From a virus: a stretch of DNA of 24,482 nt. The stretch spans positions 1-24,482 of the IMG/VR virus record IMGVR_UViG_3300032242_000223. One strand, given 5' to 3'. The position numbers and the translations under genes are program-made. The notes beneath the pieces were generated by a model, which searched no databases, was not told where the DNA came from, and worked only from the letters and a program-made list of their open reading frames with translations. Below, piece by piece: positions 4,385 to 17,661 of the stretch; within the stretch, counting starts at the first letter, position 1; each line of letters opens with the position of its first letter.

Positions 4385-5266
4385 ATGCCAACCAGTGTAT
4401 ATTTTAATAACTATAACGCTAAGAATGAACAGCGATTATTTGAAGACTTAATTGTAGAATCCATTAAGATTATGGGTTTTGACGGATATTATCTTCCTAA
4501 CGATAACGACCAAGCTCGTGACTTGTTGTACGGTGAAGATCCGGTTAAAAGATTTGAAACAGCGTTTCCTATTGAGATGTACCTTTCATCGGCTCTCGAA
4601 TATACAGGCGAAAGAGAATTCTTTTCTAAATTTGGTCTTGAAATTAAGAACAATGTTTCGGTCATTCTATCTAAACGAACATTCATTCAAAGAGTACCAC
4701 AAAATAAATTTGACAGGCCTCGTGAAGGTGACTTGATTTATATTCCAGTTACCAACCAAACCGGTGAATTGTTTGAAGTTAAATTTGTTGATGCAACTAA
4801 AGACTTCTTCACCTTAGGTCGCAAGATTCCGTATTTCTATGAAATTCAACTTGAGAAATTTAAATATTCTAATGAACGCATTGATACTGGTGTGCCAGAT
4901 ATTGATGTGGTGAATATTCAAGATTCATACACTCTCAATCTACAAATGGACAGAAACAATTGGAATTATACACCAAATGAAGTTGTATTTCAAAGTGTTG
5001 ATTCAACATTTGCAAACGCTGTTACAACTGCTGTAGTTTCATCGTGGGATGCTACGGCTAATACTTTATATGTTACAAATATTATGGGTGATTTCCAACT
5101 TGGTTCAAATATTATTGGCCAATCATCACAAACAAGTATTATGCTAACATCATTTGATCCATTAGATGTTACACTAAGTAGAGAAGTTTATGACAATAAA
5201 GTTATTCAAACTGAAGCGGACCAAATTATTGATTTTAGTGAGCAAAATCCATTTGGTGAAATATAA
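4385..5266 (+). CDS. gp14: Neck protein gp14
   Basis: 293 residues (T4 256). Conserved family features: N-terminal SVYFNNYNAKNEQRLFEDL, the GFDGYYLPN segment, the ALEYTGEREFFSKFGLEI segment and RPREGDLIYIPVTN. gp14 joins gp13 in the neck, to which the tail attaches. Residues about 199-260 form a separate beta-rich domain that resembles the C-terminus of the next protein, gp15 (see findings); this extra domain accounts for the greater length. It starts nine bases after gp13 and its stop codon overlaps the gp15 start by one base. Confidence 0.85.
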   Translation: MPTSVYFNNYNAKNEQRLFEDLIVESIKIMGFDGYYLPNDNDQARDLLYGEDPVKRFETAFPIEMYLSSALEYTGEREFFSKFGLEIKNNVSVILSKRTFIQRVPQNKFDRPREGDLIYIPVTNQTGELFEVKFVDATKDFFTLGRKIPYFYEIQLEKFKYSNERIDTGVPDIDVVNIQDSYTLNLQMDRNNWNYTPNEVVFQSVDSTFANAVTTAVVSSWDATANTLYVTNIMGDFQLGSNIIGQSSQTSIMLTSFDPLDVTLSREVYDNKVIQTEADQIIDFSEQNPFGEI

Positions 5267-6258
5267 TGGCTTATAATAAAATAATTCGAAAATTGGTTGT
5301 TGGTTTTGGTAATCTCTTTGATGATATTACTTTAACCAGATTTAATCCTGATGGTTCTGAAGTTCAAAGACAAAAAGTGCCATTGGCTTATGCTTCAAAA
5401 GAGCGTTATGTAATGCGTTTGCAATCTGATCCTGAGTTGGATAAAAAGGTTCAAATTACTTTGCCTCGTATGTCATTTGATATGACTGGAATGACATACG
5501 ATTCTTCTCGTAAACAATTGACGAATATTAAAAATTATGCACCATCCAGAAATGCTGACACAATTCTCTCACAATATAACCCTGTTCCTTATGATTTTGA
5601 TTTTTCTTTATACATTTATGTAAGAAATATCGAAGATGGCACACAAATTATTGAGCACATTTTACCGTATTTTACACCTGATTATACCATTAGATTAAAT
5701 CTAATACCTGAAATGGGTATCGTTAAAGAAATACCTGTGTTGTTAAAATCAACTAATCAGGAGATTGATTATGAAGGTGATAGAGACCATGAAACCAGAA
5801 CAATTATTTGGACTTTAAACTTTACAGTCAAAGGTTTTGTATTTGGTGCCGTTTCTGAACCTAAGGTTATTAAAAAATCAATTACGAATATATATGATAA
5901 TACTCTATCGGATAATGATACCGTTGAATTTGGTATGGGAGAATCTGGTTTAGGAAATTATAAAGAAGGTGAATTTGTTTATCAAGGTTATAGTTTACAA
6001 AATTCAACAGCGTCAGCTAAAGTATTATATTGGACACCAGAAACATCAAAATTACAATTGACTAATATTAGTGGCAACTTTGTAACTTCTCATCCTGTTC
6101 ATGGTAGTCAAACTGGTGCAGTTTATACATTTATGTCGCACCAAGTGTTACCTCAAAAACTTGTTAATATTCAAGTAACACCTGACCCATCGAGTGCTAA
6201 TTCAACTTCTGATTATTTGTATCACGAAGAAATTACTGAATTTCCAAATATTAATTAA
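5266..6258 (+). CDS. gp15: Proximal tail sheath stabilisation protein gp15
   Basis: 330 residues against 272 in T4. The N-terminal half is recognisably gp15: IRKLVVGFGNLFDDITLTR, then PLAYASKERYVMRL and LPRMSFDMTGMTYDSSRK. gp15 forms the terminator ring that caps sheath and tube and docks to the neck. The added length is a C-terminal module at about 235-290 (EFVYQGYSL, then ANL-type strands ending LTNISGNF and HGSQTGAVY) matching one in gp14. The start is the ATG overlapping the gp14 stop by one base. Confidence 0.87.
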   Translation: MAYNKIIRKLVVGFGNLFDDITLTRFNPDGSEVQRQKVPLAYASKERYVMRLQSDPELDKKVQITLPRMSFDMTGMTYDSSRKQLTNIKNYAPSRNADTILSQYNPVPYDFDFSLYIYVRNIEDGTQIIEHILPYFTPDYTIRLNLIPEMGIVKEIPVLLKSTNQEIDYEGDRDHETRTIIWTLNFTVKGFVFGAVSEPKVIKKSITNIYDNTLSDNDTVEFGMGESGLGNYKEGEFVYQGYSLQNSTASAKVLYWTPETSKLQLTNISGNFVTSHPVHGSQTGAVYTFMSHQVLPQKLVNIQVTPDPSSANSTSDYLYHEEITEFPNIN

Positions 6259-6269
6259 GAGAAATTATA

Positions 6270-6716
6270 ATGTCTAAAATTGATGATAATTTAAGTGAAT
6301 TGTTGGATATACCGGTGACACCGGCTGTTGAAATACAACAGCCGGCACCAACACCTGTACCACTTGACAAAAAACTTGATGGCGTAATAGAACATGATTT
6401 GATGCAGGACTATGAAGATTCTCGTAGAAGATTAAAAGAAATTGTGGCCAAAGGTACTGATGCAATTGATGATATGTTGGCCATTGCCCGTGAGTCTGAA
6501 CATCCTCGTGCTTTCGAAGTAGCTTCTAAATTAATTGATTCTGTTACGACTGCTAATGAAAAACTTCTTGGTATTCAAAAGCAAATGAAAGATATTCGTG
6601 GTGTCAAAAATCAAAATCAAACAAATATTGGTAAAGCTGCAATCTTTGTAGGTTCAACTGCTGAACTATCTAAGATGTTAAGAAATAATGACATGAAGAC
6701 TATTGATGGCGAATGA
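6270..6716 (+). CDS. gp16: Terminase small subunit gp16
   Basis: 148 residues (T4 164). After a proline-rich N-terminus, the central part is helical: LMQDYEDSRRRLKEIVAKGTDAIDDML followed by IARESEHPRAFEVASKLIDSVTTANEKLLGIQKQM, the pattern of the gp16 family, which oligomerises into rings and regulates the large subunit during DNA packaging. It overlaps gp17 by 11 bases. Near its start, 6312-6345, lies a GC-rich nested inverted repeat described separately; this is unusual in such AT-rich sequence. Confidence 0.88.
   Translation: MSKIDDNLSELLDIPVTPAVEIQQPAPTPVPLDKKLDGVIEHDLMQDYEDSRRRLKEIVAKGTDAIDDMLAIARESEHPRAFEVASKLIDSVTTANEKLLGIQKQMKDIRGVKNQNQTNIGKAAIFVGSTAELSKMLRNNDMKTIDGE
6312..6345. repeat. 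Nested GC-rich inverted repeats inside gp16
   Basis: Two overlapping perfect inverted repeats: CCGGTG-A-CACCGG at 6312-6324, and CCGGCTGTTG-AAATA-CAACAGCCGG at 6321-6345 (10-bp arms, 5-base loop). They share the central CCGG, so the two hairpins would be mutually exclusive. There is no T-run after it, so it is not an intrinsic terminator. Candidate roles are a terminase recognition/pac-type site or an mRNA structure affecting gp16 translation. Confidence 0.8.
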
Positions 6717-8385
6717 AAATTTAGGATATAGGGATAATCCACTTCTTAAAAAAGTAGGAATACCTCACCAATATACACAAGAAGAAATTGAAGAATACAT
6801 TAAGTGTTCTCAGGATCCAATTTATTTTATTCAAAATTACATTAAGATTGTCAATGTAGATGATGGTTTAGTTCCATTTAATATGTGGGACTTTCAAAAA
6901 ACGATGGTCGAAACATTTAAAGACAATCGTTTTGTAATTATGAAAATGCCTAGGCAGGTTGGTAAAACAACCACAACTGTTGGTTATTTACTTTGGCATA
7001 CTATCTTTCAAGACACACAGAATGTGGCCATCTTGGCCAACAAAGGTTCTCTGGCTCGTGATATTTTAGCTAAGTATCAACTAGCATATGAAAATTTACC
7101 CACATGGTTACAACAAGGTGTAGTAACATGGAACAAAGGTAATGTAGAATTAGAAAATGGTTCTAAACTTTTAGCTGCTTCAACATCATCAAGTGCAATT
7201 CGAGGAGGTTCATTTAACCTTGTATTCCTTGACGAGTTTGCTTTCGTGCCTAATAACATGGCAATCGAATTCTTTAATTCTGTTTATCCTGTAATTTCTT
7301 CTGGTAAAACATCAAAGATTATTATTGTTTCTACTCCAAATGGTATGAATCTGTTCTACAAGATGTGGATGGATGCCATTGAAAAACGAAGCACTTATAA
7401 ACCATTACAGATTCATTGGTCAGATGTTCCAGGTCGAGACCAAAAATGGCGTGATGAAACCATCCGTAATACCAGTGAAGAACAATTTAGGCAAGAGTTT
7501 GAAACAGAATTCTTAGGTTCAAGTAATACATTGATTTCTGGTCAAAAATTACAAACTTTGTCATACAAAGACCCAATTGGCAAACACATGGATATGGATA
7601 TCTATGAGGTTCCAGTAAAAGATAATGAAGATGGAACGGTTAAAGACCATTTGTATGCCATCACTGTAGATGTAGCAGAAGGTAAGAACCTGGACGCATC
7701 CACTATGTCCGTGTTTGATGTTTCAGCGATACCTTATAGACAGGTTGCTAAATATAAAAATTCAGCGATTTCACCAATACTTTTTCCAACTATCATTTAT
7801 AATGCGGCTCGTTATTATAATGATGCCTATATATTGGTTGAGATTAATAATAATCCACAAATCGCAGAAATACTACATAGTGATTTAGAGTATGAAAATG
7901 TGGTTAAAGTACAAACTGGAAATAAGAAAGCTCAGCAAATTTCCGCTGGGTTCGGTAGAGGAATACAATTAGGTGTTCGTATGACACCTCTTGTTAAACG
8001 GGTTGGTTGCACAAACTTAAAAACTTTGATTGAAACTGACAAACTTTTAATTAATGATTTTGAAACAATTTCTGAATTAACTACCTTCGTTGCTGGTAGA
8101 AGTTCTTTTGAAGCGGAAGAAGGCGCAAATGATGACTTGGTGATGAGCCTTGTTTTATTTGCGTGGATGACCACTCAAAAATACTTTAGAGATATTGTTT
8201 CTCATGACATACGAAAACAATTACAACTGCAACACTTTTCACAAGTAGATGAAGAACTGTTACCTGTAGGCGAATTAAGTGACGGAAGAGATGTGCCTTT
8301 TATAGTAGAAGGCGGAGATGTATGGGTTTCAGGTTCTGGTGAAATATATTCTGATTATTTCAATGAAATCACCAGAGGTCTATAA
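6706..8385 (+). CDS. gp17: Terminase large subunit gp17 (packaging ATPase and nuclease)
   Basis: 559 residues from the ATG at 6706 (a TTG directly before it could add one residue); T4 gp17 has 610. ATPase domain: adenine-binding region near FNMWDFQKTMV, Walker A PRQVGKTT at about 82-89, Walker B VFLDEF at about 173-178, followed by a coupling motif in STPNGMN. Nuclease domain, RNase H-like: D322 in VDVAEG, E379 in LVEINN and D476/D477 in GANDDLV, corresponding to the T4 gp17 acidic triad. The protein docks on the portal, pumps DNA and cuts concatemers. It overlaps gp16 by 11 bases, the usual coupling of terminase subunits. No intron or inserted homing endonuclease is visible. Confidence 0.95.
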   Translation: MANENLGYRDNPLLKKVGIPHQYTQEEIEEYIKCSQDPIYFIQNYIKIVNVDDGLVPFNMWDFQKTMVETFKDNRFVIMKMPRQVGKTTTTVGYLLWHTIFQDTQNVAILANKGSLARDILAKYQLAYENLPTWLQQGVVTWNKGNVELENGSKLLAASTSSSAIRGGSFNLVFLDEFAFVPNNMAIEFFNSVYPVISSGKTSKIIIVSTPNGMNLFYKMWMDAIEKRSTYKPLQIHWSDVPGRDQKWRDETIRNTSEEQFRQEFETEFLGSSNTLISGQKLQTLSYKDPIGKHMDMDIYEVPVKDNEDGTVKDHLYAITVDVAEGKNLDASTMSVFDVSAIPYRQVAKYKNSAISPILFPTIIYNAARYYNDAYILVEINNNPQIAEILHSDLEYENVVKVQTGNKKAQQISAGFGRGIQLGVRMTPLVKRVGCTNLKTLIETDKLLINDFETISELTTFVAGRSSFEAEEGANDDLVMSLVLFAWMTTQKYFRDIVSHDIRKQLQLQHFSQVDEELLPVGELSDGRDVPFIVEGGDVWVSGSGEIYSDYFNEITRGL

Positions 8386-12488: not shown

Positions 12489-12496
12489 TATAAATA
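12489..12496 (+). promoter_or_regulatory. Candidate late promoter (TATAAATA) for the prohead core operon
   Basis: Exact TATAAATA, the T4 late consensus, eight bases after the gp20 stop and 35 bases before the next ATG, which has Shine-Dalgarno TTGGAGAT. Confidence 0.78.
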
Positions 12497-15676: not shown

Positions 15677-17029
15677 ATGTATCTTTCAGAAGAATTACAA
15701 TCTAAATGGCAACCAGTTTTGGAACATCCAGAACTAGAAGCTATCAAAGACCCATATAAAAAGGCTGTTACAGCCATGGTTCTTGAAAACCAACAAAAAG
15801 CTATCCTTCAAGAGCGTATGCAATTGAATGAAACTGATGCTGGTCCTACTAATGTAACCGGTGGTGTAAAGAACTACGACCCAATTTTGATTTCATTGGT
15901 TCGCCGTGCTTTGCCTAACCTAATTGCTTATGATGTTGCTGGTGTACAACCAATGACAGGCCCTACTGGTCTTATCTTCGCAATGCGTGCCCGTTATGAT
16001 GGTCAATCAGGTGCTGAAGCATTCTTTGATGAAGCAAATACAGTATTCTCAGGTAACACATCTGCTGGTAACCAATATGGTTTCGGTGGTACTGCTTCTA
16101 CTGATGCTAATACTAACCCAGCAGCTTATGGTAATATCAATCAATCAGTGAACGGTTCTAACACATTCACTTCTGGTATTGGTATGTCAACATCACAAGC
16201 TGAATATCTTGGCGCTGATAGCAATCCTGCTTTCCAACAAATGGCATTCTCAATTGAAAAAGTTTCTGTAACTGCTCAATCTCGTGCTTTGAAAGCTGAA
16301 TACTCACTAGAACTTGCTCAAGACTTGAAAGCAATCCATGGTTTGGATGCTGAAACAGAATTAAGCAACATTCTTTCAACAGAAATTCTTGCTGAAATTA
16401 ACCGTGAAGTTATTCGTACTATCTACACAGTTGCTAAAGCTGGTGCTCAATACGGTACACAAACAGCAGGTATCTTTAACTTAGATACAGACTCAAACGG
16501 TCGTTGGTCAGTTGAACGCTTCAAAGGTTTGATTTTCCAAATCGAAAGAGATGCTAATGTTATCGCAAAACAAACTCGTAGAGGTAAAGGTAATGTACTT
16601 ATCGTTTCTTCTGATGTAGCTTCTGCTCTTGCTATGGCTGGTGTATTACAATATACTCCTGCTCTATCAGCAGATTTACAAGTAGATGACACAGGTAATA
16701 CATTTGCTGGTCTATTACACGGTCGTATCAAAGTGTATATCGATCCATACTTCGGTGGATATCAATCAAATAACGAATTGGTAACAGTTGGTTATAAAGG
16801 TTCAAGTCCTTACGATGCTGGTATTTTCTACTGCCCATATGTACCTCTACAAATGGTTCGTGCAGTTGACCAATTCACATTCCAACCTAAAATCGGTTTC
16901 AAAACTCGTTACGGTATGGTTGCTAACCCATTTGCTGAAGGTGTTTACAATTCACAAACTGGTAATGGCCGCTTAGTTACTCGTAGCAATGTTTACTACC
17001 GCATTTTCCAAGTTGCGAACTTGATGTAG
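15677..17029 (+). CDS. gp23: Major capsid protein gp23
   Basis: 450 residues (T4 521 before cleavage). HK97-fold capsid subunit: VKNYDPILISLVRRALPNLIAYDVAGVQPMTGPTGLIFAMRARY near the N-terminus is the gp23 family signature, and PFAEGVYNSQTGNGRLVTRSNVYYRIFQVANLM closes the protein as in T4-like capsids. A prohead cleavage site is predicted after E52 in QLNETDAG, matching the gp21 (L/I)xE rule; LQE at 44-46 is an alternative. The codon use seems favoured towards frequent codons compared with its neighbours, and it is followed by the strongest terminator in the window. In T4 this protein needs GroEL plus gp31 to fold, which is relevant to the GroEL gene downstream. Confidence 0.97.
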   Translation: MYLSEELQSKWQPVLEHPELEAIKDPYKKAVTAMVLENQQKAILQERMQLNETDAGPTNVTGGVKNYDPILISLVRRALPNLIAYDVAGVQPMTGPTGLIFAMRARYDGQSGAEAFFDEANTVFSGNTSAGNQYGFGGTASTDANTNPAAYGNINQSVNGSNTFTSGIGMSTSQAEYLGADSNPAFQQMAFSIEKVSVTAQSRALKAEYSLELAQDLKAIHGLDAETELSNILSTEILAEINREVIRTIYTVAKAGAQYGTQTAGIFNLDTDSNGRWSVERFKGLIFQIERDANVIAKQTRRGKGNVLIVSSDVASALAMAGVLQYTPALSADLQVDDTGNTFAGLLHGRIKVYIDPYFGGYQSNNELVTVGYKGSSPYDAGIFYCPYVPLQMVRAVDQFTFQPKIGFKTRYGMVANPFAEGVYNSQTGNGRLVTRSNVYYRIFQVANLM

Positions 17030-17061: not shown

Positions 17062-17090
17062 AAAGAGGCACTTCGGTGCCTCTTTTTTTA
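17062..17090 (+). terminator. Intrinsic terminator after gp23 (UUCG tetraloop)
   Basis: Perfect stem AGAGGCAC / GTGCCTCT with a TTCG loop closed by C-G, extended by two A-T pairs (17062-17071 with 17076-17085) and followed by a T-run to 17089. It would stop gp22-gp23 late transcripts immediately before the next late promoter. Confidence 0.95.
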
Positions 17091-17094
17091 TGCG

Positions 17095-17102
17095 TATAAA
17101 TA
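17095..17102 (+). promoter_or_regulatory. Candidate late promoter (TATAAATA) for the gp3-like gene
   Basis: Exact TATAAATA five bases after the terminator T-run and 27 bases before the next ATG, which has Shine-Dalgarno CAAGGAGAT. Confidence 0.8.
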
Positions 17103-17121: not shown

Positions 17122-17661
17122 ATGGCCGAACCAAGCGCAATAAATCAACAACCACAGAATACTAGTTTATTACAGACCACCAAGTATGTGTTTGTAATGC
17201 CTCGTATTAATAATGTAACTTACTTTTGTCAAGAGGCGAATCTGCCAGGTGTGTCTTTACCTGCACTTAGTCGTTCTACTCCTATTGTAGATATACATTC
17301 TCCTGGAAATAAATTAGAGTATAACCCATTATCTTTAACTTTTATTATTGACGGTGAACTTAAAGCGTGGACAGATATTCATGATTGGATGCGTGATTTA
17401 ACTTTGTTGAACGGTAATAATTATACCAACATATATGAACGAAAACAACAACAAAGTCAAAAACAAATGGTTCAATATGCCGATGGTATATTAACTGTTA
17501 TGACTGGATTAAATAATCCCAAATTTAGAATTCATTATGCTAATTTGTTTCCAATTAATCTTACTGATATTGATTTTAAATCCACCGGTTCAGCCGATGA
17601 CATCTTAACCGCCACGGTTCAATTTAGGTATGATTTTTACGACATTGAATCCCTCAACTAG
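17122..17661 (+). CDS. Tail tube-fold protein, probably tail completion protein gp3
   Basis: 179 residues. The pattern FCQEANLPGVSLPALSRSTPIVDIHSPGNKLEYNPLSLTFIIDGELKAWTDIHDWMRDL is that of the tail tube superfamily and parallels gp19 in this window (LAKTSQLPGSTIGVVPL then a central beta strand and a helix with a WM pair). In environmental T4-like genomes the gene between gp23 and uvsY is usually annotated gp3, the tail terminator/sheath stabiliser, and T4 gp3 has a similar length (176). I therefore favour gp3, but a tube initiator-type paralogue is possible. It has its own exact late promoter and ends three bases before a sigma70-type promoter, marking the boundary between late structural and replication genes. 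Confidence 0.6.
   Translation: MAEPSAINQQPQNTSLLQTTKYVFVMPRINNVTYFCQEANLPGVSLPALSRSTPIVDIHSPGNKLEYNPLSLTFIIDGELKAWTDIHDWMRDLTLLNGNNYTNIYERKQQQSQKQMVQYADGILTVMTGLNNPKFRIHYANLFPINLTDIDFKSTGSADDILTATVQFRYDFYDIESLN

Follow-up and report, generated by a model that had tools for sequence, protein, structure and literature searches.

The small terminase gene, gp16, of a virus carrying T4-type genes contains a GC-rich 10-bp hairpin shortly after its start codon. Judged by the pairing that its close relatives keep, the hairpin is a real, conserved and strong mRNA structure of the coding region at the level of its clade. That it works as RNA, affects translation and does so by pausing ribosomes is what we infer as most likely, and we put at about even the chance that the hairpin tunes early gp16 translation by pausing or spacing ribosomes. 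What began as a speculative packaging site thus becomes a testable translational element, and the analysis also showed that T4 has a comparably strong hairpin in its own gene 16, within reach of reporter or phage-mutant work.

Results

A strong hairpin early in gp16

The window (IMG/VR virus record IMGVR_UViG_3300032242_000223, analysed over its 24,482 bases; G+C 34.9%) holds a T4-type block of head and tail genes in which gp15, gp16 and gp17 adjoin one another (Table 1). Both inverted repeats pointed out in an earlier, sequence-only reading were present, 43–76 nt into gp16, with the CCGG at 6321–6324 common to the two. The 10-bp stem occupies nt 52–76 after the AUG, an outer helix reaches back to nt 45, and the whole element spans nt 43–86 of the 447 nt of the gene.

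Table 1. Positions of the gp16 hairpin, its parts and the adjoining genes in the window
Feature	Position	Strand	Evidence or remark
gp15, tail sheath stabilizer gene directly upstream of gp16	5266–6258	+	ORF; PHROG 227, E 1.4e-74
gp16, small terminase gene with the hairpin inside its coding sequence	6270–6716 (447 nt)	+	ORF; PHROG 445 terminase small subunit, E 4.9e-36
gp17, large terminase gene	6706–8385	+	ORF; PHROG 2 and 5989; ATG at 6706 overlaps the end of gp16
Small inverted repeat CCGGTG-A-CACCGG	6312–6324 (arms 6312–6317 and 6319–6324)	+	6-bp arms, 1-nt spacer
Outer helix, 5′ strand GGUG	6314–6317	+	Partner in the window 6346–6349 or 6352–6355; in L002 and L083, the adjacent strand
10-bp hairpin, 5′ arm CCGGCTGTTG	6321–6330 (gp16 nt 52–61)	+	Repeat search, folding, pairing in relatives
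Hairpin loop AAATA (5 nt)	6331–6335	+	Variable among relatives
10-bp hairpin, 3′ arm CAACAGCCGG	6336–6345 (gp16 nt 67–76)	+	Repeat search, folding, pairing in relatives
Two alternative CACC partners of the outer helix	6346–6355 (6346–6349 and 6352–6355)	+	

The inner hairpin had a predicted energy of −17.2 kcal/mol, or −21.6 kcal/mol with the outer helix, and an ensemble probability of about 1; which copy of CACC was chosen by the GGUG strand varied with the length of flanking sequence folded. It was the most stable simple hairpin of the window, in which two hairpins had arms of at least 10 bp and loops of 3–10 nt, the other (17062–17085) being a terminator. That GC-rich repeats of this kind are rare here, as the sequence-only reading had it, was borne out, with a 10-bp arm containing at least six G/C found in 0 of 60 dinucleotide shuffles. 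The 122-nt stretch around the hairpin had a folding energy of −32.4 kcal/mol, whereas its shuffles averaged −17.4 kcal/mol (z −4.8).

Compared with synonymous-codon shuffles, early gp16 reached z −5.1, none of 60 shuffles being as stable, and ranked first of 26 window genes both by energy and by z (the gp17 start was placed at 6703, one codon early, in this ranking and at 6709, one codon late, in the start-codon folding test). The codon CCG, which is used three times in and around the hairpin arms, makes up 7 of 169 proline codons across ten window genes. Over the start codon itself (nt 1–42), folding of gp16 was close to expectation in the window (z −0.1) and averaged +0.28 in the family.

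Several candidate identities for the element were rejected. The gp16 ribosome binding site, at about 6259–6272, is outside both the 10-bp stem and the outer helix, which argues against a hairpin that sequesters the start site. The stem is followed by CACCAACACC and no T run, which is not the arrangement of an intrinsic terminator, and no terminator-like site was found on the + strand within 5900–6900. Nor did the window give any Rfam match at the gathering score. There was no late-promoter consensus near gp16, so that the gene is probably co-transcribed in a polycistronic gp15–gp16–gp17 message.

One structure and not two balanced alternatives

The two repeats had been described as mutually exclusive hairpins, with an RNA switch that controls terminase translation as one possible role. 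Since the small repeat has a 1-nt spacer, its hairpin could have no more than 5 bp, closed by a 3-nt loop, at −5.3 to −6.4 kcal/mol, and its ensemble probability was 0.0; half of the repeat, the GGUG at 6314–6317, pairs in the outer helix instead. In the relative L083 the small repeat is lost and the long hairpin lengthened to 17 bp, with a bulge of 3 nt. A two-state switch needs comparable and conserved folds, and was rejected because the small hairpin is unpopulated next to a fold of −17.2 to −21.6 kcal/mol and absent in L083; there is therefore one structure here. The translational part of the proposal fared better, and a role of the RNA in translation is the best remaining reading.

Pairing is kept among close relatives while letters change

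IMG/VR was searched for close relatives with gp15, gp16 and gp17 as queries and with a degenerate hairpin pattern. Three distinct close gp16 genes were among the matches listed: L082, L002 (its gp16 sequence is also that of L084, L085 and L243) and L083, with 90%, 87% and 85% protein identity to the window, respectively. All three kept the hairpin. With the four distinct sequences laid on a 14-pair model, 54 of 56 cells were standard pairs, the two broken ones both being in L082. At pairs 48/77, 54/74 and 56/72 (gp16 nt), both sides had changed with pairing retained, and pair 55/73 became G-U in L083, in which pairs were preserved at the price of two protein-altering codon changes (P to L and A to V). 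Conservation of the repeats against that of the codons, the comparison suggested with the original proposal, thus came out in favour of structure: pairing was kept while letters and codons changed.

How surprising this is depends on the null. When alignment columns were shuffled, covariation as high as that observed came up in 17 of 500 cases, which is modest, and one of six slid controls (+3) scored higher covariation (0.250 versus 0.226) but was only 60.7% paired. When the stem changes (four in L082, five in L083) were placed at random, at least three double compensations together with at least the observed pairing occurred in 0.0004–0.005 of 200,000 trials, a range that depends on the transition share, with the state of the window and L002 taken as ancestral. 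An RNAalifold scan from gp14 to gp18 of the four close phages ranked the gp16 hairpin best of 1509 windows (−21.0, the next being −14.95). As to the strand on which the structure acts, the evidence within the clade is a draw: the G-U of L083 is on the + strand, and the A-C of L082 would be U-G on the − strand. Early gp16 of L082, folded in 60-nt windows, reached z −1.9 only.

The degenerate pattern matched 21 contigs, comprising four known close relatives and 17 outside the listed close gp16 homologues. The exact 25-mer of the hairpin was not found elsewhere in the viral contigs searched.

A clade feature within a wider tendency

In the next-nearest clades (11 sequences, 60-nt windows), the picture was mixed. 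Hairpins of unrelated letters were seen at about nt 44–88 in L086 and L087 (z −4.0 and −3.5) and, more weakly, in L088 and L089 (z −1.3 and −1.75); five members of the L092 clade had one further downstream (z −1.0, −1.2, −1.2, −2.9 and −2.7), and no early gp16 hairpin was found in L094 (z +0.6) or L267 (z −0.3). Across IMG/VR, the best gp16 window was early in 33 of 137 clusters against 27.0 expected, a weak excess, and two members of the window's clade were the most extreme of the 137. A structure fixed throughout the gp16 family was rejected, as profiles of 75 clusters (80% identity) and of 137 (85%) gave only a weak, diffuse dip. The mixed next-nearest clades and the weak family excess make the hairpin a feature of the clade and not a fixed family motif. 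GC-rich perfect stems in the first 150 nt (arm of at least 8, at least four G/C) numbered five in the 137 gp16 clusters and four in the other four genes together, which is suggestive only.

The neighbouring genes showed a broader effect. In IMG/VR relatives, gp14, gp15 and gp17 had excess folding at nt 19–78 and neutral folding at nt 1–42, most strongly in gp14 and gp15; the best window was early in 51 of 111 clusters for gp14 (16.7 expected), 42 of 132 for gp15 (22.4 expected) and 24 of 85 for gp17 (11.3 expected). One distant locus from genome contigs entered the gene-wise profiles only.

An equivalent hairpin in T4 gene 16

T4 gene 16 was first met as an extreme case in a control run of 29 T4 genes, where the hairpin CCUCCCCG-GAAUUGA-CGGGGAGG appeared at nt 42–64 (−20 kcal/mol). 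It is in the same gene as the window hairpin, at the same distance past the start codon and the LLDI motif, and likewise uses rare codons (in 21 late genes, CCC 9 of 383 Pro, CTC 35 of 604 Leu, GGG 34 of 669 Gly and GAG 75 of 619 Glu). Its letters are unrelated, however, and its 3′ arm has an internal Shine-Dalgarno-like run, GGGGAGG, which the window arm does not have. In synonymous shuffles the early structure of T4 gene 16 ranked first of 25 late genes.

The DNA that forms the equivalent hairpin of T4-type phages codes for a conserved stretch of protein, the motif DLPGIxGEE. A variable linker that leaves the DNA free to evolve such a structure, as had been suggested, holds in the window's own group, but with the T4-type hairpin inside a conserved motif such freedom is no requirement.

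Of 15 strabovirus records, five (T4, two mosigviruses, a dhakavirus and VR7) retained the full 8-bp pairing of T4, with the changes among these five being G-U on the + strand; nine of the other ten break the T4 pairing and one is without the motif. Shifted-arm hairpins were found nearby in Merlin, PetCM3-4, Acinetobacter, Proteus, phiAS5 and Aeromonas 25. The most stable 42-nt gene 16 window started at nt 13–79 in 14 of 20 straboviruses, where 3.2 would be expected if starts were uniform; these phages, all related and including two near-identical mosigviruses, were chosen by genus before folding, except T4. Among kyanoviruses, the most stable window was early in one of six records. Early gene 16 ranked 1 of 23, 3 of 23 and 6 of 23 in an Acinetobacter phage, Aeromonas phage 25 and VR7, ranks that are biased upward because the phages were chosen after their early hairpin was known.

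Two further observations were made on these phages. In gene 16 of the Aeromonas phage phiAS5 (L422), nt 19–47 form a stem of 13 bp closed by a 3-nt loop, of unrelated sequence (−21.9 kcal/mol, z −6.1; region nt 19–60). In the T4 hairpin (L406:21236-21258), the GGGGAGG of the 3′ arm stands 8 nt before an in-frame GTG, a possible masked internal start. Masking of an internal Shine-Dalgarno run was rejected as a general explanation, as the window arm is without the run and, in place of the T4 GTG (which encodes V in GEEIKV), VR7 and the dhakavirus have a codon for A (GEEVTA).

Discussion

Early translation as the best explanation

A ribosome covers about 30 nt of message. The gp16 stem, from nt 42–45, sits just past the cover of an initiating ribosome, so the start site would stay open. 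The first translating ribosome would meet the stem with its P site near codon 10–11 and, paused at the stem base about one footprint past the start codon, could throttle the next initiation. Pausing of this kind would set the amount of small terminase relative to its neighbours, lower or higher. Besides recognising DNA, the small terminase regulates the motor, and control of gp16 dosage by the hairpin would explain how it is held in proportion.

Strong mRNA folding 30–70 nt after the start codon is a published class (region B of Peeri and Tuller, PMC7063772). By position and behaviour, the gp16 hairpin fits this class as an extreme case: it shares with region B the position, the excess over synonymous shuffles, the lack of a fixed sequence and the occurrence in many genes. 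Region B, in contrast, is a genome average in cellular organisms, while here a single extreme hairpin with compensatory changes is found in one phage gene. The excess structure at nt 19–78 of gp14, gp15 and gp17 extends the published cellular pattern to T4-like phages.

Other mRNA hairpins are tied to translation in T4-type phages, though they are placed differently. According to the available text of PMC3014915, those of T4 genes e, soc, 49 and I-TevI hide the Shine-Dalgarno sequence or the AUG, whereas the window's starts 45 nt past the AUG. T4 genes 25 and 38, which that text also covers, have split ribosome-binding sites; the hairpins there are conserved among T4-type phages as well, but lie between the Shine-Dalgarno sequence and the AUG, and the window's lies in coding sequence.

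In favour of a translational effect are the in-silico structure, the two nulls exceeded, the paired changes and the recurrence in T4 and most straboviruses examined. Against it stand the small gp16-wide excess, the five of six kyanovirus records without early structure and a covariation signal drawn from four sequences only. A bolder extension, which we think rather unlikely, is that an mRNA hairpin specific to gene 16 is maintained throughout the T4-type phages, T4 itself among them, and reinvented with new letters in each lineage. It would limit small-terminase synthesis, either through a pause of one ribosome a footprint past the start or through binding of gp16 to the message that encodes it, and so match the number of terminase rings to packaging.

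The T4 element is apparently undescribed. A search of titles and abstract openings did not find a description of a gene 16 hairpin, and older work on T4 genes 16 and 17, on which the Mosig group reportedly published, is outside the scope of that search, so that an earlier description is possible. A review of post-transcriptional control in T4 (PMC3014915) mentions neither 'gene 16' nor 'terminase'.

Alternative explanations

The main rival, unlikely in our estimate but live, is that the hairpin is a mutational by-product without function, made or perfected, in a linker under weak constraint, by template switching between quasi-palindromic arms. Perfect stems and compensatory changes of several bases are both reported, in the available text of PMC8794818, as products of template switching, and the variable linker, with hairpins of unrelated letters turning over between clades, would suit it. 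The G-U of L083 and the two broken pairs of L082 would not be expected to remain after a switch, however, and rare codons have been retained in both the window and T4. A switch would also have no reason to favour nt 19–78, the early position that recurs in gp14, gp15, gp17 and the straboviruses.

That same recurrence bears on an mRNA stability or processing element, in which the stem would block or guide a nuclease in the polycistronic transcript. A stem rich in G/C and flanked by gp15 and gp17, with co-transcription probable, could serve in this way, but the sequence that forms it is translated, and an early position that is also favoured in neighbouring genes points to the start codon and not to intergenic processing. 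We regard such an element as improbable.

Quite improbable, too, is a translational operator, to which gp16 or another phage protein would bind to repress gp16 translation. T4 offers a precedent in gp43 and gp32, which repress their own messages (as given in the available text of PMC3014915), and a strong gene 16 hairpin recurs among T4-type phages. Yet neither loop nor stem letters are conserved between clades, and the ribosome binding site is outside the helix.

The original suggestion, that the small terminase recognises the hairpin as a packaging (pac) or synapsis site, has become very improbable. A GC-rich palindrome within the small terminase gene is what would recommend it, as is the preference of T4 gp16 for gene 16 DNA. 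In the available text of PMC3012670, however, the preferred T4 site is the 3′-end 200 bp of gene 16, defined through DNA binding rather than through a hairpin, and the window element is at the 5′ end of the same gene. Its letters drift while its pairing stays, and the viral contigs searched gave no further exact copy of the 25-mer.

A chance product of a linker coding for proline and glutamine is disfavoured and the least probable of all, since, although short repeats are common and the excess in the wider gp16 family is weak, both nulls were exceeded and pairing is retained where the letters have changed.

Other features of the window

Right behind the major head protein gene (15677–17029, PHROG 138), positions 17062–17102 hold a UUCG-type GC hairpin with a T run, an intrinsic terminator. 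On its 3′ side, at 17095, TATAAATA, which we take to be the T4 late promoter consensus, precedes another tail-tube-like gene at 17122. This motif matched the window only at 12489, 14403 and 17095, a number at chance level (shuffle mean 3.5); all three matches are on the + strand and all three are in intergenic gaps.
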